Shown: positions 41,160-59,933 of the stretch, piece after piece | Position numbering within the stretch: the stretch's first letter is position 1 | Layout: every line of letters begins with the position of its first letter | NCBI RefSeq assembly: GCF_001426225.1 | Contig: NZ_LMRT01000001.1 | Coordinates: 400,648-464,647 of the forward strand | Direction: 5' to 3' | Source: Allobosea sp. Leaf344 | GTDB lineage: Bacteria; Pseudomonadota; Alphaproteobacteria; Rhizobiales; Beijerinckiaceae | Length of the DNA: 64,000 bases | Position numbers and translations under genes: made by a program | The notes under the pieces: generated by a model | What the model was told of the DNA's origin: nothing | Databases searched by the model: none | The model's input: only the letters and a program-made list of their open reading frames with translations

Positions 41160-41234
41160 GCTGCGGTAGCTCAGTGGTAGAGCACTCCATTGGTAATGGA
41201 GAGGTCGAGAGTTCAATCCTCTCTCGCAGCACCA
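41160..41234 (+). tRNA. tRNA-Thr (anticodon GGT)
   Basis: All arms fold. The acceptor GCTGCGG pairs with TCGCAGC (last pair G-T), the D stem is GCTC/GAGC, and the anticodon stem CTCCA/TGGAG frames the loop TTGGTAA. The T stem GAGAG/CTCTC has loop TTCAATC. The discriminator A is at 41231 and the encoded CCA at 41232-41234. The anticodon GGT reads threonine codons. Its 3' part is the attachment site of the integrated element. Confidence 0.97.
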
Positions 41235-41237
41235 GCC
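41212..41237 (+). repeat. attL: left attachment core of the integrated element
   Basis: 26 bp running from the T loop of the tRNA-Thr to 3 bp past CCA (TTCAATCCTCTCTCGCAGCA then CCAGCC) are repeated exactly at 59908-59933. The intact tRNA is kept on this side, as is usual when an integrase uses a tRNA 3' end. Confidence 0.95.
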
Positions 41238-41289
41238 CTTCCGGACTTAACCCCTTGAAATCGCAAAAATCGCTTGATTTTGGGCCGTT

Positions 41290-42903
41290 ATGCCCATTTC
41301 ACTACCGCAAAGCTTACCGAAAAATGGTGCGCAAATGGCCGGTAGTGTGCGACATATCATCGAGCGCGATGGGCGCTTCAGAGCCCGTCTCATCGTGCCT
41401 GTCCGGCTACGGCCGATCATCGGCAAGCGTGAACTGTCCGAAGCACTCGGCGGCGATCGACGTGCAGCAGAGCGTCGCGCGCATGCCGTCATCGCAAAAT
41501 TCCAGAACGAGCTTGCCCGCGCCGAGCGCCAACTTGAGCTTCAGGGCGGTGTTATCCCCAAGCGTCGTTTCAGCGAAGACGAGATCGCCCACGCCCACTA
41601 CGGCGAGGAACTGGCGATCGATGACGCTGTGCGGAACATCCCCGGCAAGCGGCCGAACCTGTCATTCACTCGCCCCGCCTATGTCGCCGCCCTCAAGCGT
41701 GTAGCCGCTGGCTCGACTTCGACAGAGGAAGCCGAGGCCGTGATCGGTTGGGCCGTCACGAAGTTCTCTGAGCGCGAAAGCCGCGAGATCATTACCGACA
41801 CGCCGGAATGGCAAAAGACCGCTCGCATGCTGGCGCTGGTGCAGCTTGAACTCATCGCGCGCGAGACAGAGCGGGACCAGGGCAACTTCAATGGCACCCC
41901 TGACCTGCCGATTCTTAAGAAAGAGCCCGCGCAGCCTGCCCCCGACCCGGTGAGGCTGAAGACACTATTCGACGGCTACTTCCGCGAGCTGCGCGCGCAG
42001 AACCGTGGCGCAGAAGCCGAGCGCCGTTGGCGTCCGGTATTCGAGGACCTGCGCGACTTCCTGAAACATGACGACGCCCTGCGGATCACGAAGCAGCGGC
42101 TTCAAGATTGGAAGGATGACCTGATCGCGCGTTATGCTGCGAAGACCATCCGCGACTCGTATTTCGGAGCTGTTAAGGCCATCTTCGCATGGGCAGCCGA
42201 CACCGGCCGCATCCCGTCGAATCCGACGGTCGGGCTCAAGATTAAGGTGCCGAAGCCGATCCTGGCCCGAGAGAAGGGCTACAATGACGAGGAAGCGATT
42301 GCCGTCCTTAAGGCCGCTACCAACTACAAGCCAAAGGTGTCGGATAATCCCGCCACGACCGAACAGCCCGCCCTCACGGCTGCGAAGCGCTGGACGCCAT
42401 GGCTATGCGCTTACACCGGTGCGCGCATCAGCGAGATGACGCAGCTCCGCAAGGAGGACGTGAAGGTCAAGGACGGCATCCACTATCTGCGGATCACGTC
42501 CGACGCCGGCAGCGTGAAGACCGGCCAATACCGCGACGTGCCGATCCACCCGCACTTGATCGAGCAAGGCTTCCTCGAATTCGTAAAGGGGTCGGCGGCC
42601 GGCCCGCTATTCTATCGCCCCTCGCCTCGCACAACCTCGGCAAGGCCGTGGCGCACGGTTTCCGGCCGCATGAGCGATTGGGTTCGATCTCTTAAGTTAA
42701 TCGACCCGCGAGTAAGTCCTAACCATGGGTGGCGCGACCGCTTCAAAACCATCGCAATTGAAGTTGGCATGAATCCACGCTCGGCGGACGCTATACAGGG
42801 ACATGCGGCGAGGACAGCCGGCGAGAACTACGGGGATGTAACTCTTAAAGCGCGTAAGGTAGCGATTGACAAAATACCGGACTACGCTGCTGGGATGGCT
42901 TAG
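41290..42903 (+). CDS. int: Tyrosine recombinase / phage integrase
   Basis: The protein has 537 residues. The N-terminus (VRHIIERDGRFRARLIVPVRLRPIIGK) is like the DUF6538 opening of many proteobacterial integrases. A SAM-like core-binding domain lies at about 255-330. The catalytic domain has Arg in YTGARISEMTQL near 379, His-x-x-Arg in NHGWRDRFKT near 480, His in IQGHAART near 505 and Tyr in GENYGDVT near 514. It sits at the left end next to attL. ATG codons at 41290 and 41335 are both possible starts. Confidence 0.94.
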   Translation: MPISLPQSLPKNGAQMAGSVRHIIERDGRFRARLIVPVRLRPIIGKRELSEALGGDRRAAERRAHAVIAKFQNELARAERQLELQGGVIPKRRFSEDEIAHAHYGEELAIDDAVRNIPGKRPNLSFTRPAYVAALKRVAAGSTSTEEAEAVIGWAVTKFSERESREIITDTPEWQKTARMLALVQLELIARETERDQGNFNGTPDLPILKKEPAQPAPDPVRLKTLFDGYFRELRAQNRGAEAERRWRPVFEDLRDFLKHDDALRITKQRLQDWKDDLIARYAAKTIRDSYFGAVKAIFAWAADTGRIPSNPTVGLKIKVPKPILAREKGYNDEEAIAVLKAATNYKPKVSDNPATTEQPALTAAKRWTPWLCAYTGARISEMTQLRKEDVKVKDGIHYLRITSDAGSVKTGQYRDVPIHPHLIEQGFLEFVKGSAAGPLFYRPSPRTTSARPWRTVSGRMSDWVRSLKLIDPRVSPNHGWRDRFKTIAIEVGMNPRSADAIQGHAARTAGENYGDVTLKARKVAIDKIPDYAAGMA

Positions 42904-42918
42904 CAGATTGATATTGCG

Positions 42919-44214
42919 TCAATCTTTTTGACCTACTTTTTCGATCTGCTTCTGAACAATCTCGATAACTTGCTGAACCCAGGGCGCTCCTGCCTTCGTC
43001 GCCGCCGGCCCGATACCGGTTGCACCGGCGAGAGCGATCGTCAGGTAACTCATGATTACCAGCGTTCCTGCTTGCGCAAGACGTTCTTTGGTTTTGTCTA
43101 TAGTCTTGTTAACAAGGTCAGCTGAATGTCTCAGTATAACGGAGATCAAATTCTCGATGGTTCTAATCATCGCGAATGCAGCCCGCTTTGATGATTTACC
43201 GGGAGAGTTGAGGAACTGCCTGACAAACTCGATTGTTTCAGGGACTTCCGGCTCTGCTACGGCGGGGTTTTTCGCGAGCTCGCTTACAACTGAAATAGCC
43301 GCTTCATCGACAGTTGTGACGTCTGATTGATCCAGCGCAGTAAGCGCTGCTTTCTGAGAGAACTGCTCCCATTCAGGAAACTGAGCGACATACAGAGAGA
43401 CCGCAGAATTATAGGAGCTAAACATGGCGGCCACCGCCTCTGGTAGTTCAGCATCGAATTTTTCCCCCATCATGGAACACGCCATGTTGGTTAAGCCTAT
43501 CTTGACAACATTCCCCCCCTCGATCAATTGCGACTGCAGCTCTCGGACAGTGTCCAAAAGCCGCTTGTCACAGTTCGAATTAGCCAAATTTTCGATAAGC
43601 CTCTGACCGCTGCCCTGAATATATTCTAAAGACGCCGCGATATTATCTCTATCCTCAGCCAATGACTTCGGCGGCTTCGATGAGACAGCGATCTTTCCAT
43701 TGACGATTTCAAATTGAACCGGTGCGATCTGCTGTTCTGGAACTATCTTCTTGATCTCTTCGAAATCCATCGACGTCTGACCGCCGAGTGGGTTACTGGA
43801 AATGAAGCCGAGATATGACCGAAATTTCAACAAGGCATCAGACACGGTGACATCAGCATCATCGTGTATAGATTTAAGAAACGGCGTAAGAGTTTCGCGC
43901 TCTCGCGACGGCATAGGCGCCAGCCGGAATTTTCGCTGAAACAATTGCGGCTCGATGAGCGGAGAGTGCAGAAATTTATCCACAAAGTTCTGAATATGAC
44001 TTACGGCCTCAAGCCATTCCTCGTCTGTTACTTTTTGAGATGCTCTTGTTATTGTAACGAATCTTATTCTGGCCTCCTCTATCATAAACAGAATCTGCAC
44101 TACATTTTCACGCTCCACCTTACCCAGACGAGCCGCGCGTATTCTGTTATCTAAAATGAATCGGAGAGACGAAAGTAGTGAAATCACGTCTCTGCGTAAC
44201 TCCGCCTCATTCAT
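42919..44214 (-). CDS. Cargo protein of unknown function, AT-rich
   Basis: I do not recognise this 431-residue protein. It is mostly alpha-helical and polar, with LRFILDNRIRAARLGKVERENV near the start. One clear hydrophobic segment lies near the C-terminus (LVIMSYLTIALAGATGIGPAAT, about 385-408), followed by a Lys/Gln-rich tail. Base composition is clearly more AT-rich than the genes on either side, and it runs against the phage operon, ending 16 bp from the integrase stop. The ATG at 44214 has an AAGAGA ribosome site. Its place and composition suggest an acquired cargo gene, perhaps for defence; that is inference from context. Confidence 0.75.
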   Translation of the reverse strand: MNEAELRRDVISLLSSLRFILDNRIRAARLGKVERENVVQILFMIEEARIRFVTITRASQKVTDEEWLEAVSHIQNFVDKFLHSPLIEPQLFQRKFRLAPMPSRERETLTPFLKSIHDDADVTVSDALLKFRSYLGFISSNPLGGQTSMDFEEIKKIVPEQQIAPVQFEIVNGKIAVSSKPPKSLAEDRDNIAASLEYIQGSGQRLIENLANSNCDKRLLDTVRELQSQLIEGGNVVKIGLTNMACSMMGEKFDAELPEAVAAMFSSYNSAVSLYVAQFPEWEQFSQKAALTALDQSDVTTVDEAAISVVSELAKNPAVAEPEVPETIEFVRQFLNSPGKSSKRAAFAMIRTIENLISVILRHSADLVNKTIDKTKERLAQAGTLVIMSYLTIALAGATGIGPAATKAGAPWVQQVIEIVQKQIEKVGQKD

Positions 44215-44350
44215 GAAAATCATCTCTTATCCCAGCAATAATCTCAAATTGGAAAGAACAGGTAGGGTGATTCGGCACGGTGGTCGAACCTCAGGCTACC
44301 AACAAAAGGAAGCGGTTGCCATCGCAGCACCGGCGCGGCAAGCGCGTCGA

Positions 44351-44448: not shown

Positions 44449-45687
44449 GTGTTCCGAGAATTTGTCGGCAGCGTAACGAAATCGCTTGGTTTTGGATTGT
44501 ATCAGAAGACGATCCCCCTCTCTGATACTGCTATTGTAGAGCTATTCAGCACGCTGCCGACTGTCTCCGGTATTTCGCTCGGCGCTCACACCGCCCTCCG
44601 CGTCCCCGCAGTTCTTCAGGCTGCGCGCCTGATCGCCGAGACAGTCGGCACGCTCCCCTGCAAGCTCTATCGCGACGCAGGCGACAGCAAGGAAGCTGCA
44701 AAGGATCATGCCGGCCATCGGCTCACCCACAACCGCGTCAACGGCTGGACCAGCGCTGGCCATCTCCGCACACTCCTAACGACCGACGCCCTGCTTCACG
44801 GCGCCGGCTATGCCCATGTCGTCCGCACCGGCGATGGCCGGCCTGTCGAGATGCACCGCCTTGCACCCGGCAGCGTGCAGCGCCGCTTCGAAGACGACGG
44901 CGAACCCTTCTACATCGTCACCGACGCGCAGAACCGGCAGCGCCGGCTCGCCTTCAGCGACGTGCTCTACATTCCCACCTTCGGCGAAGTCTCCCCCGTG
45001 CAGCTCGGCAAGGAAGCCATTGGCGTCGCGATGCTCTTGGAGCGCCACGCCGCGCAGTTCTTCGGCTCTGGTGCCCGTCCCGCTGCCGTCCTCTCGAATG
45101 AGAAGCCGCAGGGCGGCGAACAGGGCGCCACGACCATCACGAACATCCGCAAGTCGTTCCGCAACTGGCTCGCCGGTGGCAGCAGCGATCCACTCATTCT
45201 GGACGCCGGCTGGAAATACGAACAGCCGGCCATGACCTCGACCGATGCCCAGTTCCTTGAGCATCGCCTCGAGCAGGTCCGCGAGATCGCCCGCATCTTC
45301 GGCGTCCCGCCTTCCATGCTGTTCGAACTGAGCCGGGCCACTTGGTCCAACGCGGAGCAGATGGCCGCGAGCTTCCTTCAGCTCTGCCTTCGCCCGTGGC
45401 TGGACCGTTGGCAGGACGCCTACGCGACCGTGCTGCTCACCGAAGACGAACAGGACATCCTCTATTTCGAGTTCGTCATCGACGACCTTCAGCGCGCCGA
45501 TGCGGCGGGCCGGGCCGAGATCTTCGGCAAGCTGGTCGCGATGCGCGCCATGACCCCCAACGAAGTCCGCGCCGCGATGAACCTCCCCGCGATCGAGGGC
45601 GGCGACGAACTGGCAAATCCCTACACCACGACCGGCCCTGCTGCCGGCGCCAACGACAATCCCAGCACTGACAAGGAAGCCGCGTGA
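44449..45687 (+). CDS. Phage portal protein, HK97 family
   Basis: This 412-residue protein, from a GTG start, is the dodecameric portal through which DNA enters the capsid. Family blocks are ALRVPAVLQAARLIAETVGTLPCKLY, LLTTDALLHGAGYAHVVR, REIARIFGVPPSMLFELSRATWSNAEQ and the late MTPNEVRAAMNLPAIEGGDEL. It is the first gene of the head operon here; in most HK97-like phages the terminase genes come before it. The stop overlaps the next gene start. Confidence 0.93.
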   Translation: MFREFVGSVTKSLGFGLYQKTIPLSDTAIVELFSTLPTVSGISLGAHTALRVPAVLQAARLIAETVGTLPCKLYRDAGDSKEAAKDHAGHRLTHNRVNGWTSAGHLRTLLTTDALLHGAGYAHVVRTGDGRPVEMHRLAPGSVQRRFEDDGEPFYIVTDAQNRQRRLAFSDVLYIPTFGEVSPVQLGKEAIGVAMLLERHAAQFFGSGARPAAVLSNEKPQGGEQGATTITNIRKSFRNWLAGGSSDPLILDAGWKYEQPAMTSTDAQFLEHRLEQVREIARIFGVPPSMLFELSRATWSNAEQMAASFLQLCLRPWLDRWQDAYATVLLTEDEQDILYFEFVIDDLQRADAAGRAEIFGKLVAMRAMTPNEVRAAMNLPAIEGGDELANPYTTTGPAAGANDNPSTDKEAA

Positions 45688-46016
45688 AGCACGTCGCCTA
45701 CTTCGGTGACGGCGAGCACAGCTTCGCCCTCACCGACACCATGATCCGCGAGCTTGAGCACAAGGCAGGCGTCGGCATCGGCCTGTTCTATCAGCGCGTC
45801 GTCGCCATGCAGTTCTTCGTCACCGACCTTGTCGAGACGATCCGGCTTGGCCTCATCGGAGCCGGCACGTCCCCCTCCGATGCTCAGCGTCTTGTCGATA
45901 CCTACGCGACCGACCGGCCGCTTGCTGAGACTGTGCCGCTCGCACTGGACATTTTGATCGCCCGTTGGGGTGGCGAGACCACCGCCGACGAAGCCCAGGA
46001 CGACGCCGATGTCTGA
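45684..46016 (+). CDS. Tail assembly chaperone-like protein (gene transfer agent type)
   Basis: The 110-residue protein resembles the Phage_TAC_11 / gene-transfer-agent small proteins that open with a beta-hairpin (YFGDGEHSFALTDTMIRELEHKAG) followed by helices. Such proteins usually lie between the tail tube and tape-measure genes. Here the gene sits between portal and capsid, overlapping both by a few bases (GTGA at the start, ATG of the capsid inside its end). Confidence 0.65.
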   Translation: MKHVAYFGDGEHSFALTDTMIRELEHKAGVGIGLFYQRVVAMQFFVTDLVETIRLGLIGAGTSPSDAQRLVDTYATDRPLAETVPLALDILIARWGGETTADEAQDDADV

Positions 46017-47529
46017 GCGGCTAGAGATCAAGGCCAGCATCAGCGTTGACGACGCAGGCACCATCACCGGCACGGCATGGCCGTTCGGCACCCCGGATAG
46101 AGTCAATGACGTGATCGAGAAAGGCGCCTTCGGTGCGCCGGCCCGGCTCCCGATGCTTTGGGCACACGATCAAGCCCAGGCGATCGGCGTCTGGGATTCC
46201 GTCACCGAAACCGACGCCGGCCTCACCGTGAAGGGCCGGCTGCTCATCGATGACGTGGCGCGTGCCCGCGAGGTTCGCGCCCTTGTCCGCGAGGGCGCCG
46301 TTTCCGGCCTCTCGATCGGCTTCGTCAGTCAGAAGGCCACGGCCCGCGCTCGCGGCGGCCGGACCATCAGCAAGCTCGACCTGCACGAAATCTCCATCGT
46401 CGCCGTTCCCTGCCATCCCGGCGCGACCATCACCTCAATGAAAGCCGCGATTGATGGCCCGGCTACTGCACAGGAACAGAACGTGAATCAGGAAGAGAAG
46501 ACCGAAACCAAGGACGCCCCGGCGTTCGACCAGAAGGCGTTCGACGCCCTTCAGGCCCGTCTCGACAAGCTGGAAGCCAAGGGCAACCGCCTGCCTGCTG
46601 CGAACGACAACCTTCGCGCCGACAACGACAATCACCAGACCAAGGCCTTCGCCGACTTCGTCCGCTCGGGCGATGCAAGCGAGGTGAAGTCGCTCGGCTA
46701 CAGTTCGCCCTCGACTGGTGGCATTCTGGCGCCCGAAAAGGTCGCGACCTCGATCCTCGAAAAGGTCGCGGAGTTCTCGCCGGTTCGCTCGCTGGCGCAG
46801 ACCATCAGCATGGCCGGCCCGCTGCTCCAGCTTCCCCGGCTGGTCGATGAGGTTGCCGTTGGTGAGGTTGCCGAGACGGCGACGCGCCCGTCAAGCGAGC
46901 CGTCTTTCGACCAGATCGACCTGAAGGCCTTCGAGATGGCCGTGACCGTGCCGGTGACGCGCATTCTGCTCGAAGACGCTCAGATCGACCTCGCCAGCTA
47001 TCTCGGCAATCACATCGCCCGTCGCTTCGGCCAGAAGGAAGCGGCTTGGTTCGTCAACGGAAACGGCACGACGCAGGCTGAAGGCGTTCTCACTTCCGGC
47101 GACGTTGCCGAAGTCGAAGCCGACATTACCGGCGATGACCTCATCGACCTCTTCTACAGTATCAAGACCGCCTATTCGAGCAACGGCGCGTGGCTGATGA
47201 ACCGCAAGACCATGGCCGTGGTCCGCAAGCTCAAGGACGCTGATGGCGCCTACATCTGGGAGCGCAGCATCGCGGCTGGCCAGCCGCCGCTGATCCTCGG
47301 GCGCCCCGTCTATGAGGCCGTCGATATGCCCGATCCGGCCGCCGGCAATACGGCGATCGTCTTCGGCGACTTCGCGACTGGCTATGCCATCGCTGACCGC
47401 GTCGGGTTCGACATCTTCCGCGACGAATACACCGGCGCCGACAACGGCATCATCAAGCTGCGCGCCCGGCGCCGCGTCGGTGGCCGCATCGTCATGGGCG
47501 AGGCCCTGACGAAGCTGAAGGTGGCGTAA
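46009..47529 (+). CDS. Fused HK97 prohead protease and major capsid protein
   Basis: The protein has 506 residues. Residues 1-155 are an S78-type prohead protease (TGTAWPFGTPDRVNDVIEKGAFG, His in MLWAHDQAQAIGVWD, Ser in GAVSGLSIGFVSQKA). A charged delta-like linker follows (about 160-235). The rest is an HK97-fold capsid (GILAPEKVATSILEKVAEFSPVRSLAQTISM and YEAVDMPDPAAGNTAIVFGDFATGYAIADR). Self-cleavage during maturation would release the capsid subunit. Protease and capsid are more often separate genes, but fusions are known. Confidence 0.92.
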   Translation: MSERLEIKASISVDDAGTITGTAWPFGTPDRVNDVIEKGAFGAPARLPMLWAHDQAQAIGVWDSVTETDAGLTVKGRLLIDDVARAREVRALVREGAVSGLSIGFVSQKATARARGGRTISKLDLHEISIVAVPCHPGATITSMKAAIDGPATAQEQNVNQEEKTETKDAPAFDQKAFDALQARLDKLEAKGNRLPAANDNLRADNDNHQTKAFADFVRSGDASEVKSLGYSSPSTGGILAPEKVATSILEKVAEFSPVRSLAQTISMAGPLLQLPRLVDEVAVGEVAETATRPSSEPSFDQIDLKAFEMAVTVPVTRILLEDAQIDLASYLGNHIARRFGQKEAAWFVNGNGTTQAEGVLTSGDVAEVEADITGDDLIDLFYSIKTAYSSNGAWLMNRKTMAVVRKLKDADGAYIWERSIAAGQPPLILGRPVYEAVDMPDPAAGNTAIVFGDFATGYAIADRVGFDIFRDEYTGADNGIIKLRARRRVGGRIVMGEALTKLKVA

Positions 47530-47532: not shown

Positions 47533-48156
47533 ATGAGCTTCCGGCCCGCGTATGACGAGATCGTTTTGGAGCACGGCAGCAATGTCGTGATCCTGCGCCC
47601 GTCATTGCGGGCCGCGAGCACCCTTGAGCGCTCGCATGACAGCTTCGCACTGTTGGCCCGTCGCATTGACGAGTTCCACACCGGCACCCTCCGCGAGATT
47701 ATCACGACGGCAGCAACCGACCGCAAGGACGCCGCTGCCTTCCTCACTGCTATGTCGCGGGAGCCGCTTCGGCGCTTTGTCGAGATCGCCCAGGCACCGC
47801 TGTTCCGGCTCTGTGCGGGCTTCATCCCGGCATCCGATTCCAACGCCACGCCGTCATCGAACGCCAAACCCATGCCGTGGCGTGAGGTTTATCGTGAGCT
47901 GTTCCGCACCGCGACCGGCTGGCTTCACTGGACGCCGGAAGCTGCATGGAACTCCACGCCGACCGAGATCAACGAAGCCTTTGCCGGCCACGTCGCCATG
48001 CTGAAGGCCCTTCACGGTGGCGAAGACGACGAGCCCGCCGAGCGCCAGCCCAGCCCCGAACAGGCCGCGCGCAACGTCGCCGATGGCCTCGATCCTGAGT
48101 TTGACCGAGCTGGCCTGCACGCCCTCAAGGCCCGCCATCAGGGGACGCGGCAATGA
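47533..48156 (+). CDS. Tail assembly chaperone-like protein, two-part
   Basis: The protein has 207 residues. The N-terminal part (VVILRPSLRAASTLERSHDSFALLARRIDEF) resembles TAC_11-type chaperones. The C-terminal part, TGWLHWTPEAAWNSTPTEINEAFAGHV, resembles the Phage_TAC_6 motif (LGWTPxxFWxxTPxEL). Such pairs are often joined by a ribosomal frameshift in phages; here they read through as one protein. The assignment is by motif likeness only. It starts 3 bp after the capsid stop and overlaps the HNH gene. Confidence 0.6.
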   Translation: MSFRPAYDEIVLEHGSNVVILRPSLRAASTLERSHDSFALLARRIDEFHTGTLREIITTAATDRKDAAAFLTAMSREPLRRFVEIAQAPLFRLCAGFIPASDSNATPSSNAKPMPWREVYRELFRTATGWLHWTPEAAWNSTPTEINEAFAGHVAMLKALHGGEDDEPAERQPSPEQAARNVADGLDPEFDRAGLHALKARHQGTRQ

Positions 48157-48503
48157 GCCGGCCCGCCCGCATCTGCGCCTGCGGCAATCGCGTTCCGCGT
48201 GGCATCCCCTGCCGTTGCCAGCGTGAGGCCACTCGGCTGCGTGTTGCGCGTCACGATCGACGGCGCCCGCAGGCCCGTGAGCGCGGCTATGACCATGAAT
48301 GGCGCAAGGCCCGTATCGAATATCTCGCGACGCGTCCGAACTGCGCCATGCCCGGTTGCGATGCCACGGCCACGACCGTCGATCATATCATCCCGCATCG
48401 CGGCGATCGCGCCCTATTCTGGAACTGCGCGAATTGGCAGCCGCTCTGCACCCATTGCCACAATAGCGCGAAGCAGCGCCTTGAGCGGAGCCCTAGCCGG
48501 TGA
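48153..48503 (+). CDS. Phage HNH endonuclease
   Basis: This 116-residue protein has the zinc-stabilised HNH fold: paired cysteines in NCAMPGCDAT, the VDHIIPHRGDRALFWNCANWQPLCTHCHNSAKQ core with His, Asn and His, and a basic N-terminus. Small HNH proteins of this type assist terminase in cos cleavage in HK97-like phages. They usually lie next to the terminase genes, which here are 2.4 kb away. The ATG overlaps the preceding stop. Confidence 0.92.
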   Translation: MSRPARICACGNRVPRGIPCRCQREATRLRVARHDRRRPQARERGYDHEWRKARIEYLATRPNCAMPGCDATATTVDHIIPHRGDRALFWNCANWQPLCTHCHNSAKQRLERSPSR

Positions 48504-49309: not shown

Positions 49310-49333
49310 CGAATCCTCCTCAGCCCCCGCGGC

Positions 49334-49477
49334 ATGTTCGCCACGACCGCACAAGCTGTCGAGCTAATCCCCAGGGGGGTGGTCTCCAATTTCGACGTGG
49401 TTGCGGGGACCGGCGCGGGGAGCACCGCGCAAGAGACGACCGAAATAACTTTTTCTGAGAAGGCTAATTCCTCATGA
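49334..49477 (+). other. Possible 3' remnant of a head-operon gene split by the restriction gene
   Basis: A 47-codon stretch reads in the operon direction (ending STAQETTEITFSEKANSS) and its TGA overlaps the connector ATG as ATGA, exactly as real neighbours in this operon do. In the same frame a GTG at 48500 overlaps the HNH stop as GTGA. The restriction gene lies between these two ends, so one small phage gene may have been split. I do not recognise the protein. Confidence 0.4.
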
Positions 49478-50602: not shown

Positions 50603-50603
50603 C

Positions 50604-51304: not shown

Positions 51305-52926
51305 TGGCGAGCACCTATCCGGCATGGATTTTTGACGGCAGCCCGATCGACGACCCGTTCGGCTATGGCGAGCGCGCCGTGCGCTTCCTGCGCGCCCTGA
51401 AGCATCCCAGCAGCACCGCGCCGAAGAACGCTTTCCAGCTTCACGACTGGCAAGAGCGGATCGTGCGCCGGATTTACGGCCCGCGTCATGCTGACGGCCG
51501 GCGTATCGTAGAAACCGTCTTTTGGATGATTCCCCGCGGCAACCGGAAGACCAGCCTCGCCGCAGCGTTGGCCCTGCTTCACACCATCGGGCCGGAAGCT
51601 GTTCCGGCCGGGCAAGTCATCTTCGCGGCGTCCGATCGCGAACAGGCCGGGCTCGGCTTCAAGGAAGCGGCCAACATCGTCCGCATGGACAAGCGCGTTG
51701 TCGCAGCGACGCGCATCTATGACGCCCACAACAGCGCGAAAAAGATCGTCTATCCGAAGTTGGGCGCCGAGCTTCAGGCGATCTCCAGCGACGGCGCTGC
51801 CCAGCATGGCAAGACGCCGTCATTCGTGCTGGTAGACGAGATCCATGTCTGGAAAGGCCGCGACCTATGGGAAGCGCTCAAGTCCGGGATGGTCAAGACG
51901 AGCGGCACACTCATGGTCATCGCGACCACGGCCGGGCGCGGTGCCGAGAACATCGGCTTCGAACAGTATGACTACGCCCGGCGCGTTGCGTGCGGCGAGA
52001 TCGATAATCGGGCCTATCTGCCGATCATTTTTGAGGCCGATCCGGCTGCCGATTGGCAGGACGAAGCCGATTGGCATCGCGTCAATCCCGGCCTGAAGCA
52101 CGGCTTCCCGAATCTCAACGCCCTGCGCACGGCCGCGAAGGAAGCTGAGCACCGGCCCGCCGACCGCTACGCCTTCAAGCAGTTTAACCTCAATGTGTGG
52201 ATGGCGCACTCGCGCGACCCTCTGTTCGACATGGGCGTCTATGACGAAGGCCAGGACGATCTCGACCTTGCCGACCTCGCCGATCTGCCGTGCTTCATAG
52301 GCGTCGATATGTCGGTGAACGGCGATCTCACGGCCGTCGTCGCCGCGTGGCGTCACGGCGACGGCCGCATCAGTGTGCATCCGTGGTTCTTCATTCCCGG
52401 AAACGACCTGAAGGGCCGCTCAGAGCGCGACCGCGTGCCCTATGAGCAGTGGCGCGATGACGGCCATGTCATCGCCGTTCCCGGCCCGGTCATCGATCCG
52501 GAGACGGTCGAAGCCCATATCCGCGAGCTGTGTGCGGCGAACGACAACGTGCAGGAGATCGCCTTCGATCCGCACCTTGCCCGCATGACCATGCAGCGCC
52601 TTCACGACGACGGCTTGCCGGCAATCGAGATGCGGCAGGGGCCGCTCACGATGGGGCCGGCGATCGGCACGCTTGAGCGCATCGTCAACGGCCGGATGCT
52701 TCGCCACGGCGGGCACCCCGTCCTGCGTCATCACTTCGATAGCGTCGTCGCCAGCCGCAACGACACCGGCCTTGTCCGCATGCACAAGGGCAAGAATACC
52801 GATCGCATTGACGGCGCCGTCGCCGCTGCGATGGCCGTGGCCCGCGCCGCCATGAACGACAACCGGCGCAGCTTCCTCGACATGGACCCCGACGAACTGG
52901 ACCGGCTCTGGTCCGAAGCAGCATAG
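51304..52926 (+). CDS. Terminase large subunit
   Basis: The 540-residue packaging motor has an ATPase domain with a Walker A variant (PRGNRKTSLAAALAL near residue 78) and Walker B VLVDEIHVW near 178, then ITTAAGRG-like coupling (VIATTAGRGAEN). The nuclease domain contains FIGVDMSVNGDLTAVVAAW with the first metal Asp, EIAFDPHLARMTMQRL, and NTDRIDGAVAAAMAV with the last Asp. In this element it lies after the connector genes instead of before the portal. Confidence 0.94.
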   Translation: MASTYPAWIFDGSPIDDPFGYGERAVRFLRALKHPSSTAPKNAFQLHDWQERIVRRIYGPRHADGRRIVETVFWMIPRGNRKTSLAAALALLHTIGPEAVPAGQVIFAASDREQAGLGFKEAANIVRMDKRVVAATRIYDAHNSAKKIVYPKLGAELQAISSDGAAQHGKTPSFVLVDEIHVWKGRDLWEALKSGMVKTSGTLMVIATTAGRGAENIGFEQYDYARRVACGEIDNRAYLPIIFEADPAADWQDEADWHRVNPGLKHGFPNLNALRTAAKEAEHRPADRYAFKQFNLNVWMAHSRDPLFDMGVYDEGQDDLDLADLADLPCFIGVDMSVNGDLTAVVAAWRHGDGRISVHPWFFIPGNDLKGRSERDRVPYEQWRDDGHVIAVPGPVIDPETVEAHIRELCAANDNVQEIAFDPHLARMTMQRLHDDGLPAIEMRQGPLTMGPAIGTLERIVNGRMLRHGGHPVLRHHFDSVVASRNDTGLVRMHKGKNTDRIDGAVAAAMAVARAAMNDNRRSFLDMDPDELDRLWSEAA

Positions 52927-52938: not shown

Positions 52939-55128
52939 ATGGCCGGTGAGGCAGAACAGCTTGTCGTAAGCCTTGAAGCGCGCATCCGCGAATTTGAACG
53001 CAATTTCCAGCGCGCGAACCGCACGGCGAACGACAACTTCCGCAGCATCGAGCGGCGTGCCCGCACGGCCGGGAAGAACCTCGAAAGCGCGATGGCGACC
53101 AGCAGCAACGCCATGACGCGCAGCTTGGACGGTTTCGGCAGGGCTGCCGCTGGCAAGGTCGGCGCGGCCTTTGCCGCGATCACGGCCGGCGCCGGCTTAA
53201 ACGAGCTCCGCAAAACGGCCGACGAATACACCAAGATCATGAACACGCTAAAGGTGGCCGGCGTGAAGGACGCCGATCTCGGCAGCACCTTCGATAAGCT
53301 CTTCGCCAGCGCCCAGCGCAACTATGCGCCGCTGGACGCGCTCGCGACCCTCTACGGCCGCGTCTCAGCTGCCCAGACCACGCTGAAGGCTTCCTCGCAG
53401 GAAGTCATGCAGATGACGGACATCGTCGCACAGTCGCTTCGCGTCGGCGGCACGTCGGCATCAGCGGCGTCTGGCGCCCTGCTTCAACTCGGCCAGGCAC
53501 TCGCGGGCGGCAAGGTGCAGGCAGAGGAATACAACAGCCTGCTCGACGGCATGCGCCCGCTCTTGGAAGCGGCAGCGGCCGGCATGGTGGAAGCCGGTGG
53601 CGACGTTGCCAAGCTAACCTCGCTTGTGAAGGATGGGCAGGTTTCGAGCGAAGCGTTCTTCCGCGCAATTCAGGCCGGCGCCGCGATCCTTGAAGAAAAG
53701 CTGGCCGGTGCCGCGATCACGACGGAACAGGCATGGCAGAGCTTGCAGAACGAGCTGGTCAAGGCCGTTGGCGAGTTCGACAAGGCGACCGGCGCCAGCG
53801 CTGCGCTCGCTGGCGCCATCGACGGTCTTGCGGGTAGCATCGGCGGGATTGGCCGTGCAGCAACCGGCGCCGTTGTCGGGGTGCAATCGCTCATCAAAGC
53901 AGTCGGTGATCTGGCACAGGCCCATGCCGGCGCGCAGCGCGCGCAGGCTCTCACCTATCAGAACGAGCGCGCTGATCGTGTCGCCGCAGCGCGCGAGATG
54001 GGGCTGGCGAACGCCGGTGGCCGGGACAAGCTCGCGCCGGAGCGCGCAGCCGCCGATAGCGCAGCGACGCAGCGCAGCCGTCAGGCCGTGTCTAGCTTCC
54101 GGGCATCTGAGATCGATTACGCCAATCGCCTTCGCGAAGCGCCGCTGCCGCCCGCGCGTCCTAAGGGGGCCGGAAGCGCGATCAAGCCCATCAGCCTCGC
54201 CGACTACGCCGTCCCCGATAACGAAGGTAAGGGCGGCGGTGGCGGTGGTGGTTCGGGCGCTGAGAAACAGGGCCGTTATGATCGCGACCTTGAGGCAATC
54301 CAGCGTCGCACCGAAGCCCTGCGCCTTGAAGCCGAGATGGTCGGCAAGAGCAAGCGGGAGGTTGAGCAGTCCAAGATCGCCCTTCAGCTGGAGCAGGCAG
54401 CGAAGCGCGACGGCATCACGATTACGGACCAGATGCGAACGGCGATCGACGCAGCCGCGCAGGGTTACGCCAACGCGAAGCTCAGGGTCGAAGACCTGAA
54501 GAACGCCATGGAAGGCACCCGGGACGCGGCGAAGTTCTTCGGCCAGGAGATCACCGACGGCCTTGTCGATATGGTGGTTGAGGGTAAATCCGCGACCGAG
54601 GTTATCCAGTCGCTCGGCAAGGCGATGCTGAAGGCCGCGCTTCAGGGTGCGCTTATGGGCTCCGGCCCGTTCGGCAAGCTCTTCGGCGGCGGCATCTTCG
54701 GCTCGCTCTTTGGCGGGCTCGGCTTCGCGGACGGTGGCTACACCGGGCACGGTGGCAAGTATGAGCCGGCCGGTATCGTCCATAGGGGCGAGTATGTGAT
54801 GTCCAAGGCCGCGACGAACCGGATCGGCGTCGGCAATCTCGAATCCCTGCACCGGGGCGCCCTGAAGGGCTTCGCTGCCGGAGGCTATGTCGGCGACGCG
54901 CCCGCAATCCGCAGGCCGGACGTTGCCAGCGCCAACGCCGCACCGATGCAGACCATCAGTATCAACGCACCCGTGACGGTGAACGCAAGCGGTGGGACGC
55001 CGGAAGACAATGCAGATTTGGCTGCCAAGATGGCTCGCGAAATGGAAATTTCGCTGCGGTCGGTGGTCGCGGACGAGGTTCGGCGCATGAGCAGGCCCGG
55101 CGCGTTTCTACAGACCCGTTCGCGATAG
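52939..55128 (+). CDS. Phage tail tape-measure protein
   Basis: The protein has 729 residues with a coiled-coil N-terminus (VVSLEARIREFERNFQRANRTANDNF). A conserved tape-measure domain is seen in LYGRVSAAQTTLKASSQEVMQMTDIVAQSLRVGGTSASAASGALLQLGQALAGGKVQAEEYNSLLDGMRPL. Then come a Gly-rich linker near 430, a second coiled coil, and a hydrophobic C-terminal part. Length of this protein sets tail length in siphoviruses. It is the last structural gene; no tail-tip genes follow. Confidence 0.9.
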   Translation: MAGEAEQLVVSLEARIREFERNFQRANRTANDNFRSIERRARTAGKNLESAMATSSNAMTRSLDGFGRAAAGKVGAAFAAITAGAGLNELRKTADEYTKIMNTLKVAGVKDADLGSTFDKLFASAQRNYAPLDALATLYGRVSAAQTTLKASSQEVMQMTDIVAQSLRVGGTSASAASGALLQLGQALAGGKVQAEEYNSLLDGMRPLLEAAAAGMVEAGGDVAKLTSLVKDGQVSSEAFFRAIQAGAAILEEKLAGAAITTEQAWQSLQNELVKAVGEFDKATGASAALAGAIDGLAGSIGGIGRAATGAVVGVQSLIKAVGDLAQAHAGAQRAQALTYQNERADRVAAAREMGLANAGGRDKLAPERAAADSAATQRSRQAVSSFRASEIDYANRLREAPLPPARPKGAGSAIKPISLADYAVPDNEGKGGGGGGGSGAEKQGRYDRDLEAIQRRTEALRLEAEMVGKSKREVEQSKIALQLEQAAKRDGITITDQMRTAIDAAAQGYANAKLRVEDLKNAMEGTRDAAKFFGQEITDGLVDMVVEGKSATEVIQSLGKAMLKAALQGALMGSGPFGKLFGGGIFGSLFGGLGFADGGYTGHGGKYEPAGIVHRGEYVMSKAATNRIGVGNLESLHRGALKGFAAGGYVGDAPAIRRPDVASANAAPMQTISINAPVTVNASGGTPEDNADLAAKMAREMEISLRSVVADEVRRMSRPGAFLQTRSR

Positions 55129-55625: not shown

Positions 55626-56093
55626 ATGCCTAACCCGTTCTCGCCGTCCGCGAACGCCGTTCGCCTTGATCCTCGCCGGGTCGCCCAGTTGAAGGCCATC
55701 GCCGAGGCCGTTGGCACGACCTCGGCCGGCGTCATCGCGCAGTGGATTCGCTCTTGCACCGATCAGGGCATCATCGCCCCCGATATTCCCGGCATTGTCA
55801 TCGACAAGGTTCCGGCAGGCGTGACCATCGCCATCGACGGCGCGACCCCGGTGACGCTCGACCCGGATATGACCGGCAAGGTGGTCGGCGCCCTGCGCCG
55901 CGCTATCAAGACCGGCGCGGGCACGATCGAACCGTTTGAGGCTGTCCCCTATGGCGTCGTGAAGAAGGGGCCGGGTATTCGCCTCATGCTGCCCTTCCAT
56001 GGCACCGGCGCGCAGAAGTTCGACAACTCGCCTTCGTTCCCGGTGGATCTGGCCGAAGACCTGGCCGACTTGATCGAGAAAGCCGCAGCTTAA
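55626..56093 (+). CDS. Hypothetical protein with ribbon-helix-helix-like start
   Basis: The 155-residue protein is not recognised as a family. Residues 10-42 (NAVRLDPRRVAQLKAIAEAVGTTSAGVIAQWIR) have the strand-helix-helix pattern of ribbon-helix-helix DNA-binding proteins, so it may regulate the element. The rest is a mixed domain with GVTIAIDGATPVTLDPDM. An AACAGGAG ribosome site precedes the ATG. It follows the AT-rich control-like region. Confidence 0.65.
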   Translation: MPNPFSPSANAVRLDPRRVAQLKAIAEAVGTTSAGVIAQWIRSCTDQGIIAPDIPGIVIDKVPAGVTIAIDGATPVTLDPDMTGKVVGALRRAIKTGAGTIEPFEAVPYGVVKKGPGIRLMLPFHGTGAQKFDNSPSFPVDLAEDLADLIEKAAA

Positions 56094-56099
56094 GAGAAA

Positions 56100-56177: not shown

Positions 56178-56582
56178 ATGGCTGACAACAATAATATGCA
56201 ACCTCCCGGCTGCGCTAAACTTCCTTTCCGGGCCGCGATCGAAGCTTGGCAGAACAAATTTGCTGTTGAACGCAACGCGAGGTTTGAGCCGATGCGCGAG
56301 GAACAGCGGCTCGCTTATGTCGAATTGATCCGAACTACTGAAGGCCGTGACGTTCGCGGTTACGAGCGGAACATGACGCCTGCGCGCCGCAAGGAAAAGA
56401 AGGCGGCGAAGTCGAAAGACGAGCGCGCGCGTCGCACCCCTGAGAAGATCGAGGCCGACAAGATTGCCGCGCGGGAGCGCGCTGCCGCGAGCTACCAGCG
56501 GAAGAAGGATAGGGAGGCGCAGGCCGAGGCCAGCGCGCCGGCGCCGCGCATGCAGGATGATCCGAACTTCGGCAAGTTCTGA
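56178..56582 (+). CDS. Hypothetical phage-element protein, Lys/Arg/Glu-rich
   Basis: The protein has 134 residues, is strongly charged and is probably helical in its second half (RRKEKKAAKSKDERARRTPEKIEADKIAARERAAASYQRKKDREAQAEA). The first half has WQNKFAVERNARFEPMREEQRLAYVEL. No family is recognised. The hydrophilic, nucleic-acid-like composition suggests an early gene, but this is only a guess. Confidence 0.6.
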   Translation: MADNNNMQPPGCAKLPFRAAIEAWQNKFAVERNARFEPMREEQRLAYVELIRTTEGRDVRGYERNMTPARRKEKKAAKSKDERARRTPEKIEADKIAARERAAASYQRKKDREAQAEASAPAPRMQDDPNFGKF

Positions 56583-56881
56583 TCGCGCTCACGACGTTCT
56601 GCACCGTCTCCGGTGTCCCGCTATAACGAACATGCCAGCCCCAGTTAGAAGCGGCAGGCTGGCGCGGCGCCTCGCGGACCTTCAGAGTAAGCGCACCGCG
56701 AGGCGCCAAATAGAAGCCCCTCGCGGACTAGTCACCCGCGAGGGCTTTTGCTTCAGCGGGAAGTAAATAAGAGCTTACTTACTTTAAATTGTAGCGCTGC
56801 GCGTAAAACAACTCTTGCGCGATTTAGTTCCTGCGTGCGATTCTCTGCTTCGCCTCATCCCGACGCAGCAGAGAACCCACG
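56583..56881. other. Non-coding gap with terminator
   Basis: No convincing gene is seen in these 299 bp. The left part is GC-rich, a terminator-like hairpin is at 56718-56750, and the right part (about 56760-56820) is AT-rich and may hold the promoter of the next small genes. Confidence 0.5.
56718..56750 (+). terminator. Intrinsic terminator
   Basis: CCCTCGCGG and CCGCGAGGG form a 9 bp perfect stem with a 9-base loop, followed by CTTTTG. It should end the transcript of the charged protein gene upstream. Confidence 0.7.
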
Positions 56882-57103
56882 ATGTCCCCGATCAACATCC
56901 CCGCCTACATCCCCACTAACATTTACCGCGCGATGGTCGACCAGCTCATGGTCGCCCCTGCCGCACCCGGCCATGACCTCCGCACCCGCCTTGTCGAAAT
57001 ATTGGGCGCGGCCGGTGTCTGGCCGATCTCCTGCTTAGAGGATCGCCTGGACGAACGGCGTCGGCGCCTTGAGCGCGAGAAAAAGGACAACGGCGAAAAA
57101 TAG
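56882..57103 (+). CDS. Small hypothetical protein
   Basis: The 73-residue protein begins MSPINIPAYIPTNIYRAMVDQ and ends in a very basic/acidic helix (LEDRLDERRRRLEREKKDNGEK). No family is recognised. An upstream AT-rich stretch may carry its promoter. Coding is supported by GC-rich third positions and position in a row of small rightward genes. Confidence 0.55.
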   Translation: MSPINIPAYIPTNIYRAMVDQLMVAPAAPGHDLRTRLVEILGAAGVWPISCLEDRLDERRRRLEREKKDNGEK

Positions 57104-57131
57104 GGGTTGATTGTTAAGGTGCAGCGATTTA

Positions 57132-57151
57132 GGTAACGGCATCGCGTTACC
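57132..57151 (+). promoter_or_regulatory. Inverted repeat just upstream of the next gene
   Basis: GGTAACG-GCATCG-CGTTACC is a perfect 7 bp inverted repeat ending 13 bp before the ATG at 57165. It overlaps the expected ribosome-site region, so it could be an operator or a translational hairpin. Confidence 0.4.
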
Positions 57152-57164
57152 GAGATTCAGGCAG

Positions 57165-57665
57165 ATGGCACTTTCACCCGCAGAGAAACAGAAGCGCTAC
57201 CGCGACCGCAAGCGCGCCGCGACCAAAGGTCCTGGCGATGCCAGCGTGGCCGCGCAGGCCGTCCCGTTCTTCCAGTTCTATGTCGAGGACGGGAATACGG
57301 ATGGCGTGGTCATTCCGCTGCGGCTTGCCGGCATCAAGCCGCCCGAGTTTCTGAACGACCAGCCGGCGCAGTTTCCGCACGATCTCGCCGGCGTTGATCT
57401 ACCGGCGGCCTCGAATTCGATAGCTCGCGCGGAACTGACGATCGAGTGCCTGCTAGATGCCGCCGGCGCGCTGGCCGGCATCGTGCACCGATACAAGCAA
57501 TCCGAGATCAAAGCCCGGATCGCTGAAATCGAACAAGCCGACCTGTCGGACCCGATCGCCAAGAAGCAGGCGCTCGCAGACATCGTGCGGCTTCAGAAGA
57601 TGCTGGACCAGCTATCGAAGCAGGTTCGGTGGACCTTCCCGCAATGGAAGGTGGCGGGCGATTGA
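57165..57665 (+). CDS. Hypothetical phage protein
   Basis: The protein is 166 residues from the ATG at 57165. It opens MALSPAEKQKRYRDRKRAA, a basic start seen in many small phage and plasmid proteins that may bind nucleic acid. It ends in a helical stretch with KARIAEIEQADLSDPIAKKQALADIVRLQKMLDQL. Function is unknown. It is the longest of the small genes in the right arm. Confidence 0.7.
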   Translation: MALSPAEKQKRYRDRKRAATKGPGDASVAAQAVPFFQFYVEDGNTDGVVIPLRLAGIKPPEFLNDQPAQFPHDLAGVDLPAASNSIARAELTIECLLDAAGALAGIVHRYKQSEIKARIAEIEQADLSDPIAKKQALADIVRLQKMLDQLSKQVRWTFPQWKVAGD

Positions 57666-57748
57666 GCCCCAAGCAGCGACCGGCCCGACTCCGCTACCAC
57701 ACTTCGTCAGGCCGGCCATCCGTGACCATCGCAAGCAAAGGACAAGCG

Positions 57749-58081
57749 ATGACCAGCAACCTTACCACGCATACCAGCGAAGCGAAAACGGCTTCGCTGG
57801 ACAAGACCATCACGCGCATGGGACGGAAGGAGTTCAATTCCTTCCTCTATGACCTTTATGGGTGCTCTGGCCGGAACGATGTAACCGCCGACGCGTGCTA
57901 TACGTCGGAAGACTTTTACATCGAAGTGTTCAGCCACTCGCCGGCCGGATTGATAATCGCTGCGCATCACGGCTTCGTCGGAATTGACCATCAGCTTGTA
58001 GATCTGATGCGTCCGGATACCGACTCGCGTTCCGGCTCCCCCGGTGAGGTCGCAGTGACTTTCGAGAGTGAGGCCGCGTGA
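57749..58081 (+). CDS. Hypothetical protein
   Basis: The protein is 110 residues from the ATG at 57749, which follows an AAAGGA ribosome site. It contains TITRMGRKEFNSFLYDLYGCSGRNDV and CYTSEDFYIEVFSHSPAGLIIAAHHGF. No family is recognised. Its TGA overlaps the ATG of the next gene. Confidence 0.6.
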   Translation: MTSNLTTHTSEAKTASLDKTITRMGRKEFNSFLYDLYGCSGRNDVTADACYTSEDFYIEVFSHSPAGLIIAAHHGFVGIDHQLVDLMRPDTDSRSGSPGEVAVTFESEAA

Positions 58082-58293
58082 TGAGCATCGTAAAGGACTA
58101 TGGCCCGCTGATCGAGACGGGCGCTATCGAGGGCGGCGGCAACTACGAGGTTCGCGGCGACAGCCATCCGATGGTCTATGTCTATCTGAGGATCGGCAAG
58201 GGCTACGTCGAAAAGGCGACCCATCAGGGCGAATTGTCCGGCGCAGTGGTGGCGGCCATGCTTGCAAGCGAGATCAGGAGGGCAGCCAAGTGA
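58081..58293 (+). CDS. Small hypothetical protein
   Basis: The 70-residue protein is MSIVKDYGPLIETGAIEGGG followed by a beta-rich middle and a helix ending ASEIRRAAK. It overlaps the previous stop by its ATG and the next gene by its own stop (GTGA), so the three form a coupled run. Function is unknown. Confidence 0.55.
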   Translation: MSIVKDYGPLIETGAIEGGGNYEVRGDSHPMVYVYLRIGKGYVEKATHQGELSGAVVAAMLASEIRRAAK

Positions 58294-58499
58294 CGGCGCT
58301 CAATCCCGCCCTTCGCACCCTGATAGCAGCAGCGGCCGCAAGGTATCAGCCGCCCGACAACTACGTTGACGGCCCGAACCCCGTTGAGCTGCCGGCTTCG
58401 CTGCTTGCTTCAGAACTGATCGAGTTCGCCCTTGACCGGGCAACGAAGGCCGATCTGTTAGGCATCATCAGGACGACGCTCGCCCTCGAAGCGCAGTAG
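58290..58499 (+). CDS. Small hypothetical protein
   Basis: The protein is 69 residues from the GTG at 58290, which follows a strong AGGAGG ribosome site. It is mainly helical (LRTLIAAAAARYQPP and LLASELIEFALDRATKADLLGIIRTTLALEA). No family is recognised. It is the last rightward gene of the element. Confidence 0.55.
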   Translation: MTALNPALRTLIAAAAARYQPPDNYVDGPNPVELPASLLASELIEFALDRATKADLLGIIRTTLALEAQ

Positions 58500-58566
58500 C
58501 GCCGAAGCCCAGGACGATCAACGACATGAGGCCCGCCGGTGCAGATCTGCGGGCCTTCACAATGGA

Positions 58567-59247
58567 TCAGCCCGGATACTTGAATTCAGCGAAATAAATG
58601 AAAGCAAATCCCAATCCGGCGACCAATACAACGGTAACGTAGGCAGGCCACATTCGCTGCATGCCACTATACCTGGCTTGTCGATATGAGAAAAATGACA
58701 TTGCCGCCGTTATTAATAAAATAATACCACTAAATACTAGTGAAGCTGTATGATATCTTTCTGTTTTGTTTGTTAAAGAAATTTGCGGGCCGAAATTTCC
58801 CGAGACTACAAATTGCTTTGGTGAGCCAGTGTGAAGAACTGAGACCTTGAATCCCATCCCGGGGTCGAAAACTTTCCAATCGAAATATATATCTTTATCT
58901 ATGGATAGCTTGATATTGTTGTCAATCGGACGCGCCTGACTCGAAATTACCGTATGCAATACAGATATATTTTCACTAGGCGCTATTGTCAATTTTCTCC
59001 GCACATCTTCTAGTTTTAAAGATACATTTCCTGCATTCCAAAAACTGAAAACGGTTTCACTCACCTTATCCAAGATCATTTTCTTGTCAGTATCATTTAA
59101 CATGCTTACCGGCATGTCGCCGCGTTCAAATACAAGCCTCGTGCTTGAATCGTAGGCCAATACGCCAAACGGCTTCGTATCAATCCAAAAATATATGGAT
59201 AGGGCAATACTTACGGCCCAGCCCAGCCACTGCATCGCTTCTTTCAT
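58567..59247 (-). CDS. AT-rich cargo membrane protein
   Basis: The 226-residue protein has one N-terminal hydrophobic segment (LGWAVSIALSIYFWI), an extracytoplasmic-looking beta-rich domain of about 140 residues, and two C-terminal hydrophobic segments (ASLVFSGIILLITAAMSFF and VTVVLVAGLGFAFIYFA). No family is recognised. The base composition is far more AT-rich than its neighbours, so it was probably acquired recently. It is the third gene of the leftward run behind the SOS box and may be SOS-induced. Confidence 0.75.
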   Translation of the reverse strand: MKEAMQWLGWAVSIALSIYFWIDTKPFGVLAYDSSTRLVFERGDMPVSMLNDTDKKMILDKVSETVFSFWNAGNVSLKLEDVRRKLTIAPSENISVLHTVISSQARPIDNNIKLSIDKDIYFDWKVFDPGMGFKVSVLHTGSPKQFVVSGNFGPQISLTNKTERYHTASLVFSGIILLITAAMSFFSYRQARYSGMQRMWPAYVTVVLVAGLGFAFIYFAEFKYPG

Positions 59248-59291
59248 GCACAGTGCCTCTTACTCGACAGATTCGACCGGGCTGCGGGGGC

Positions 59292-59528: not shown

Positions 59529-59751
59529 CACACATCCTCCCCGGCGTCACCTAGGCGCCGGGCGCCCTCGGAGAACACACCGCGCAGGAAGCCCCGCGAG
59601 ACGGCCTTGTCGGCGTCCGCCAACAGCACATGGAAGTCATGCAGGAGCGCCCGGAGCGCCTGTCGTTCGCTGCCGTGCTCTTCGACTAGCTCGATCAGCT
59701 CCCACTCGTCGAACCCTGATCGTTATCGATTTCGGCTGGCTTGGCTGACAT
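59528..59751 (-). pseudogene. Frameshifted small gene behind the SOS box
   Basis: The ATG at 59751 (MSAKPAEIDNDQG) runs into a stop after 18 codons. The -1/+1 alternative frame continues as FDEWELIELVEEHGSERQAL and so on to a TGA at 59530-59528 that overlaps the next ATG. Together they would give one natural protein of about 74 residues, but the span is 224 bp, not a multiple of three. The break is near the GGGTTC at about 59711-59716. It could be a mutation, a sequencing error or a programmed shift. Confidence 0.6.
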
Positions 59752-59771
59752 GACCTCTGTCCTCGTTATGA

Positions 59772-59786
59772 GAACGAAATAGGAAC
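59772..59786 (-). promoter_or_regulatory. SOS box (LexA site, alphaproteobacterial type)
   Basis: GAAC-GAAATAG-GAAC on the plus strand (GTTC-N7-GTTC on the minus strand) is a perfect match to the LexA operator established for Alphaproteobacteria. It lies 20 bp upstream of the leftward start at 59751, where a promoter would be. It should place the right-end operon under DNA-damage control. Confidence 0.75.
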
Positions 59787-59907
59787 ACAAACAGTGGGAG
59801 AGTCAAGGCGAACGCGCGCCCGCTCCCAGCGCATTTACCGCAAAAACTACCCATCACACTACCGCAATGTCTATTGTAAAATATTGATTTATAATAGCTA
59901 TTCTGAA

Positions 59908-59933
59908 TTCAATCCTCTCTCGCAGCACCAGCC
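59908..59933 (+). repeat. attR: right attachment core
   Basis: Exact 26 bp copy of 41212-41237, the tRNA-Thr 3' end including CCA and three more bases. No tRNA is formed here because the 5' half is missing. It marks the right end of the integrated element. Confidence 0.95.

Follow-up and report, generated by a model that had tools for sequence, protein, structure and literature searches.

Capsid-forming phage-inducible chromosomal islands (cf-PICIs) encode their own capsid, protease, portal, connectors, HNH protein and terminase small and large subunits (TerS and TerL), and need a helper phage for tails (PMC10690885). They are integrated islands of 14 kb on average (PMC10803314) and are said to be widespread across Bacteria (PMC10690885); the Alphaproteobacteria are not named in the list of main hosts in PMC10803314. 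Putative tape measure (tmp) genes are indicated in a figure legend for a sampling of cf-PICIs (PMC12987554). The Vibrio satellites known as PLEs form chimeric tails to which they contribute BhuB and their own tape measure protein (TMP) and tail assembly chaperone (TAC), and have been described as the first family of this kind; the PLE TMP is incorporated in virions, and deletion of tmp lowers transduction (PMC12987554). Here we describe an 18.7 kb element of the alphaproteobacterium Allobosea sp. Leaf344, located at positions 41212-59933 of a 64,000-nucleotide stretch of contig NZ_LMRT01000001.1 (the window), where it is integrated in a tRNA-Thr gene and flanked by exact 26 bp repeats.

The reading that we favour, and consider likely, is that of a capsid-forming satellite with its own head and tail-initiation kit, which would obtain tube, tip and lysis functions from a helper and thereby form a chimeric tail. 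The element is real as a recurrent, tube-less, capsid-forming entity and is very likely a satellite, probably a head-making one of tailed phages. Twenty open reading frames (ORFs) of the window were scanned with Pfam and PHROGs (E<=0.01) and six with Pfam (E<=1). A previous prediction made from the sequence letters (the original prediction) had listed an integrase, a complete set of head and packaging genes and a tape measure. All of these were recognised by Pfam and PHROGs, the head set being of HK97 type. The features are given in the order in which they lie; type A denotes relatives with the same cassette, defined after the list.

41160..41234, forward strand: tRNA-Thr (GGT), the integration target (ARAGORN)
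41212..41237: left copy of the attachment (att) repeat, 26 bp, exact
41290..42903, forward strand: integrase, 537 aa (Phage_integrase, phrog_1)
42919..44223, reverse strand: u434, likely cargo of low GC (0.49); no family above cut-off; BLAST homologue in 0/57 type A loci
44449..45687, forward strand: portal (PF04860)
45684..46016, forward strand: TAC11 (GTA-gp10), tail assembly chaperone (PF11836; in two phages the gene adjoins a distinct tube gene)
46009..47529, forward strand: protease-major capsid fusion (Peptidase_S78 and Phage_capsid; ATG at 46009, frame open from 45970)
47533..48156, forward strand: u207, apparently a fused TAC (weak TAC_6 match, two-ORF profile hits, model and fold matches)
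48153..48503, forward strand: HNH endonuclease of the packaging set (PF01844, phrog_2323)
48512..49354, reverse strand: second HNH protein, accessory (PF01844, phrog_15103; homologue in 2/57 type A loci)
49474..49779, forward strand: gp6-like head-tail connector (PF05135)
49755..50192, forward strand: HK97-gp10-like tail completion or neck protein (PF04883, phrog_5)
50177..50602, forward strand: DUF3168 / gp17, tail terminator (PF11367, phrog_176)
50583..50918, forward strand: head closure (PF05521, phrog_25)
50915..51304, forward strand: TerS (PF05119)
51304..52926, forward strand: TerL (PF03354, PF20441)
52939..55128, forward strand: TMP, 729 aa (PF20155, TMP_3; phrog_17300)
55626..56093, forward strand: u155, conserved after the TMP (family of 31 loci)
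56178..58499, forward strand: small genes u134, u73, u184, u110, u71 and a 69-aa ORF (no Pfam match; u73 and u184 are recurrent families)
58567..59247, reverse strand: u226, right-end cargo slot (no Pfam or PHROGs match; defence genes occupy the slot in relatives)
59908..59933: right copy of the att repeat, 26 bp, exact

The predicted 26 bp repeats at tRNA-Thr were recovered by a direct repeat search, as the exact core of a longer repeat (41209-41237 / 59905-59933, 29 nt at 97% identity). As expected of a cf-PICI, the element thus has an integrase and a chromosomal att site. Its GC content in 1 kb steps was 0.49-0.67, versus 0.63-0.72 (mostly about 0.69) in the flanks. Separately, in two congeneric genomes (loci L160 and L163, in G117 and G099), copies of the att core and stretches 75-81% identical to the right end (window ~59290-59790) were observed near the same tRNA-Thr, which makes this gene a hot spot for other islands.

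Relatives were collected by scanning a genome collection with a TerL alignment, which gave 243 loci, the hosts named there being mostly Rhizobiales and Rhodobacterales; the results that follow come from the best 80 of the 243, namely 57 type A loci, 14 type B loci and 9 cut or deleted copies. Type A was defined by portal, TAC11, u207 and TerL, TMP and tube playing no part in the choice, and counts out of 58 refer to the 57 type A loci and the window. The cassette was thus common to 57 of the 80 loci, and 12 genes were in one order in 50 of the 57; in three of the seven deviating loci only the start order of TerS and head closure differed, probably because of an overlap of called ORFs. Exact repeats of at least 16 bp overlapping a tRNA gene bounded 38/57 type A loci, compared with 1/57 for any such repeat when the downstream side was reversed, and therefore exceed chance. 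Seven kinds of tRNA gene were used at the 38 sites (Val 11, Gln 9, Pro 7, Thr 5, Ser 4, Gly 1, Met 1), and the bounded elements spanned 16,485-18,874 bp (median 17,946). In a TerL tree, one clade (support 100/100) contained 54 of the 58 type A elements, including that of the window, and seven cut or unclear copies. When viral contigs were scanned with the capsid, 44 loci were recovered. In 19 of them the 12 core genes were complete and followed the shared order; one of these 19 (L011), 100% identical, was taken as the record of the host genome itself, and many of the remaining loci were short contigs.

Tail parts were searched in these elements by tblastn (E<=1e-3) with the proteins of two rhizobial phages and of the gene transfer agent (GTA)-like cluster of the host genome. 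The tube, distal, hub, peptidase, megatron, fibre and lysozyme proteins of the two phages matched 0/58 elements, as did the three tip proteins of the GTA-like cluster; the same search found the portal in 58/58, TAC11 in 57, TMP in 54, tail completion in 52 and the terminator in 22. A TMP profile matched all 58, and the TMPs of type A elements were 638-969 aa long. A tail tube profile built from related elements matched 0/58, with no type A match even at E<=10. An unrelated tube would escape this profile, since it also missed the tubes of two complete phages; the gene-by-gene inventory of the window provides a second line of evidence. In the window ORFs scanned, no match to tail tube, tip, fibre, lysis, primase or repressor families was found, save one label, the GTA-gp10 gene being called tail tube by both Pfam and PHROGs. 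This gene was rejected as a tube and taken as a chaperone because it adjoins a distinct tube or major tail gene in two complete phages. The absence of tail tube, tip, lysis, replication and repressor genes, as originally predicted, therefore holds for these scans, and the proposal of a tail-less satellite with its own head and its own tape measure is supported by 57 of 80 loci, which share both its genes and its absences. The satellite reading had predicted such relatives at tRNA genes.

Two TACs, which bear on the mechanism, had not been named in the original prediction. Besides TAC11, the product of u207 matched TAC_6 weakly (E 0.0027, below the cut-off). Its profile matched two adjacent ORFs in three genomes (G317, G512 and G381), so that u207 appears to be two adjacent chaperone genes joined into one, and it also matched the TAC_6-like ORF of the host's GTA-like cluster. 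The AlphaFold2 model (mean pLDDT 88.8) consists of a hairpin and helices, and its structural matches included tail assembly proteins, only 2 of 121 matches being at E<=0.001; comparison with the TAC11 profile was suggestive only (probability 49, E 1.7e-4). Modelling and profiles together make u207 look like a fused TAC, and on sequence grounds we count two TACs (u207 and GTA-gp10) in the element in addition to the TMP.

Downstream of the TMP the gene content varied. BLAST with window proteins found u155 in 24/57 type A loci, u184 in 17/57 and u73 in 12/57, and a minor tail protein followed the TMP in 6/58, the window not being among them. Family-library scans of relatives covered the genes outside the integrase-portal and HNH-gp6 stretches; the protein sets comprised 120 of 150 listed ORFs, from 551 called (A2, downstream), and 87 of 97 listed (A5), with families listed as the first 25 of 32, 67, 74, 94 and 64. 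Among the families listed for A2, a minor tail protein occurred in two, no lysis family was present and defence families were plentiful (AIPR, BglII, methylases, Abi families, GmrSD, TIR, Mrr). Relatives carry defence genes in the right-end slot, as known for satellites. The N-terminus of u155 looks like a ribbon-helix-helix regulator by sequence. In 16 relatives (set A6), and not in the window, the slot after u155 encodes a protein with an invariant HxHG and a Y, with a K nearly invariant three residues on; by these motifs it is perhaps an HUH replication initiator, and a PDB profile search gave no match for this family. Basic proteins were also observed in this slot (window 56178-56582; L058, L065, L076, L079, L081 and L108), with differing sequences and ends that are often FG(K/R)F-like.

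These data bear on a first alternative, that of a self-sufficient small phage whose complete tail is made of tube and tip proteins missed by the libraries. Several post-TMP genes of the window have no family assignment, as this explanation needs; however, the post-TMP families differ between elements, the right-end slot of relatives holds defence genes, no lysis gene was recognised, and u207, the best-conserved unknown of the structural block, is helical and TAC-like. We regard this alternative as quite improbable.

Selection was estimated from dN/dS (non-synonymous to synonymous substitution rates) against L034, L081 and L079. Values were 0.17, 0.18 and 0.27 for the TMP and 0.14, 0.13 and 0.24 for the portal. 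These ratios clearly point to a TMP that is kept under selective constraint.

GTAs have a full tail including the tip, are host-fixed clusters and are not known to carry an integrase or att sites. An RcGTA-like gene cluster is present in the host genome (G000:C14, ~106-122 kb; L055 and L056), which raises the question of whether element heads receive GTA tails. The match of the u207 profile in this cluster would agree with such an arrangement. However, GTA tip proteins were not found in 2/5 and 6/15 of the relatives' host genomes searched, so that the GTA cannot be a general tail donor, and the ORF at the TMP position of the host's cluster encodes 199 aa, compared with 638-969 aa for element TMPs; a satellite of the GTA is therefore highly improbable. 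The best matches to the TMP C-terminus in the phage collection were RHph_TM3_3_14B and vB_MseS-P1, and our guess is that the helper has a tail of this type.

Several observations weigh against the satellite reading. No empty site was found: the right-flank genes of the window were absent within 15 kb to the right of the tRNA gene in 20/20 congeners examined (20 of the 41 genus genomes), the left flank having a match in 41/41 genomes of the genus. The element is sparse: of 385 genomes sampled from across the class, one, the host itself, had a u207 profile match of full length, and 17 had any match; in the same family 7/99 genomes matched, two besides the host near full length. Four type A copies (L124, L129, L131 and L132) fell outside the TerL clade; modules recombine, so that the element cannot be represented by any one tree, and identities between the window and IMG/VR locus L034 were 91% for the portal, 98% for TerS and 58% for TerL. 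The capsid is less constrained (dN/dS 0.59, 0.55 and 0.69 against the same three loci), with TAC11 at about 0.47-0.55, and the faster change of both is perhaps due to exchange. PICI hallmarks are an AlpA or Stl regulator and a primase or replication module; no replication or regulator gene, and specifically no AlpA, Stl or primase, was recognised among the window ORFs scanned, small regulators being easily missed. An unrelated tube gene may be hidden among the uncharacterised small genes. In the host genome the Pfam model for HK97-type portals had two matches, in the element and in the GTA-like cluster, and no second TMP homologue was found there. Finally, tube-bearing relatives exist: in 6/14 type B loci a tube gene lies between the capsid and neck genes, and a TMP is present as well.

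The tube-bearing relatives, the lack of a helper in searches of the host genome, and three copies that have apparently been internally deleted and have lost several core genes (L090, L091 and L095) are also compatible with a reduced prophage, the immobile remnant of an ordinary siphophage whose tube, tip and lysis genes have been lost. Against this stand the same absences in 58/58 elements, att repeats at seven tRNA kinds, a steady size and a constrained TMP, as chance decay is expected to strip different genes from different copies. Close relatives that carry the usual tail and lysis modules would have favoured it; the search for them led to the six more distant tube-bearing type B loci, which are island-sized where bounded, the size of the element rather than of 40 kb phages. 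The reduced prophage named in the original prediction is thus much weakened by the same absences across relatives, and stays as an unlikely rival.

Type B loci are small tRNA islands too, with a repeat at a tRNA gene in 7/14 and spans of 15,469-17,561 bp. The three tube-bearing ones with att repeats span only 17.3-17.6 kb, and for this reason look like islands and not full phages. Elsewhere, the tube profile matched five IMG/VR loci and one plasmid, and 0/9 cut or deleted copies. The TMP profile search was negative in 8/14 type B loci; L114 and L135 are truncated at the ends of their contigs, L123 gave a TMP match in a smaller search, and L134, with neither tube nor TMP, looks head-only. Loss or gain of the tube among satellites, and not decay of the window copy, seems to account for the difference in tube ownership.

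Plasmid forms were also found. A circular plasmid of Paracoccus marcusii (NZ_CP157016.1, 17,494 bp; L205) carries a near-identical type A head cassette and encodes a replication initiation protein; its TMP gene spans the start of the record, and no integrase is listed for it. It is an episomal form of the same size. In the Methylorubrum populi plasmid pMPOP02 (NC_010721.1, 23,392 bp; L208), the tail tube gene of a related cassette is flanked by capsid and chaperone; the plasmid also encodes a TMP of 1074 aa and a MipZ-type ATPase, and bears a Tn3-like insertion. In an element of Sinorhizobium meliloti pSymB (L209, 13644-16361), the TMP is annotated as a D-Ala-D-Ala carboxypeptidase and appears in PLSDB as a glycopeptide resistance gene at 30.7% identity; a muralytic domain inside a tape measure protein is the more likely explanation.

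The DNA itself shows the genes present, the att sites, the constraint on the TMP and the fact that elements with these absences recur in many hosts; from this, and by analogy with the experimental precedent in PLEs, chimeric tail assembly emerges as the best-supported mechanism for the satellite that we favour. In a cell with an active siphophage, the element would excise, build its own heads and fill them with its own genome of about 18 kb. Its TMP, coated by chaperones, would be seated on the helper tip complex and helper tube protein recruited around it, so that the satellite would set the tail length. The tail-initiation kit would consist of the two TACs, tape measure, tail completion and terminator proteins; the terminator and neck proteins would join the helper-tube tail to the element head, and helper lysis would release the chimeric particles. 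Alternatively, the satellite might take a whole helper tail, and its TMP and TACs would act against rival phages by blocking or mistiming their tail assembly. Satellites and prophages can indeed block tail assembly, as with Tai (PMC11364771), and Rta acts on a phage TMP (PMC12987554). However, the genes for TMP, TACs, terminator and neck are kept together as a single conserved block in 50/57 type A loci, as parts of one particle would, and the PLE TMP is built into virions (PMC12987554); we give this explanation little credence.

Tentatively, and at a little short of an even bet, we extend this to an alphaproteobacterial satellite superfamily in which genome size is nearly constant (about 15.5-19 kb) and tail ownership is graded: head only; head, TACs and TMP; head, tube and TMP. 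The window grade would keep the parts that start the tail and set its length, and delegate tube and tip; it would thereby dictate tail length to its helper, and could switch helpers by matching only tube and tip contacts. The dozens of natural variants (TMPs of 638-969 aa) and the tube-bearing sisters are a ready set for studying satellite takeover of tail assembly and the modularity of siphophage tails.

Compared with known systems, the element lacks the recognised tube, tip and lysis genes of a complete siphophage prophage. The TMPs of the complete rhizobial siphophages vB_MseS-P1 and RHph_TM3_3_14B (724 and 729 aa, compared with 729 in the window), their TAC11 and their neck genes are homologous to those of the element; unlike it, both have separate tube, distal tail, and hub or fibre genes, with lysozymes in P1. 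Gene order also differs: these phages begin with TerS-TerL and have TAC11 between tube and TMP, whereas in the element the terminases follow the head genes and a chaperone lies on either side of the capsid gene. RcGTA-like GTAs share GTA-gp10 (TAC11) and TAC_6-type chaperones with the element, which differs from them by its integrase and att sites and by the lack of GTA tip matches in 58 elements. The Streptomyces satellites MulchRoom and MiniFlayer have their own capsid and packaging genes, with a helper tail for MulchRoom; they differ in having direct terminal repeats and virulent helpers, and a tape measure is unmentioned in the paper's text (PMC10690885). PLEs, like the element, encode TMP and TAC and leave the tube to the helper; they use helper capsid proteins, whereas the element has its own capsid and terminase, and PLE11 brings a baseplate hub, which the element does not (PMC12987554).

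Like cf-PICIs, the element has its own capsid, protease, portal, connectors, HNH protein, TerS and TerL. No tube or tip was found in it. It differs in that its family has a TMP in 58/58 and two TACs, measures 16.5-18.9 kb, is alphaproteobacterial and is without recognised AlpA, Stl or primase. No alphaproteobacterial capsid-forming satellite family was found in the literature searched, judged by title or abstract opening, and one may still be in print. By gene content, the element is best set beside the cf-PICIs as a cf-PICI-like element of the Alphaproteobacteria. If our reading is right, it extends capsid-forming satellites to this class and joins an own head and an own tape measure in a borrowed tail, which have so far been described in separate systems.

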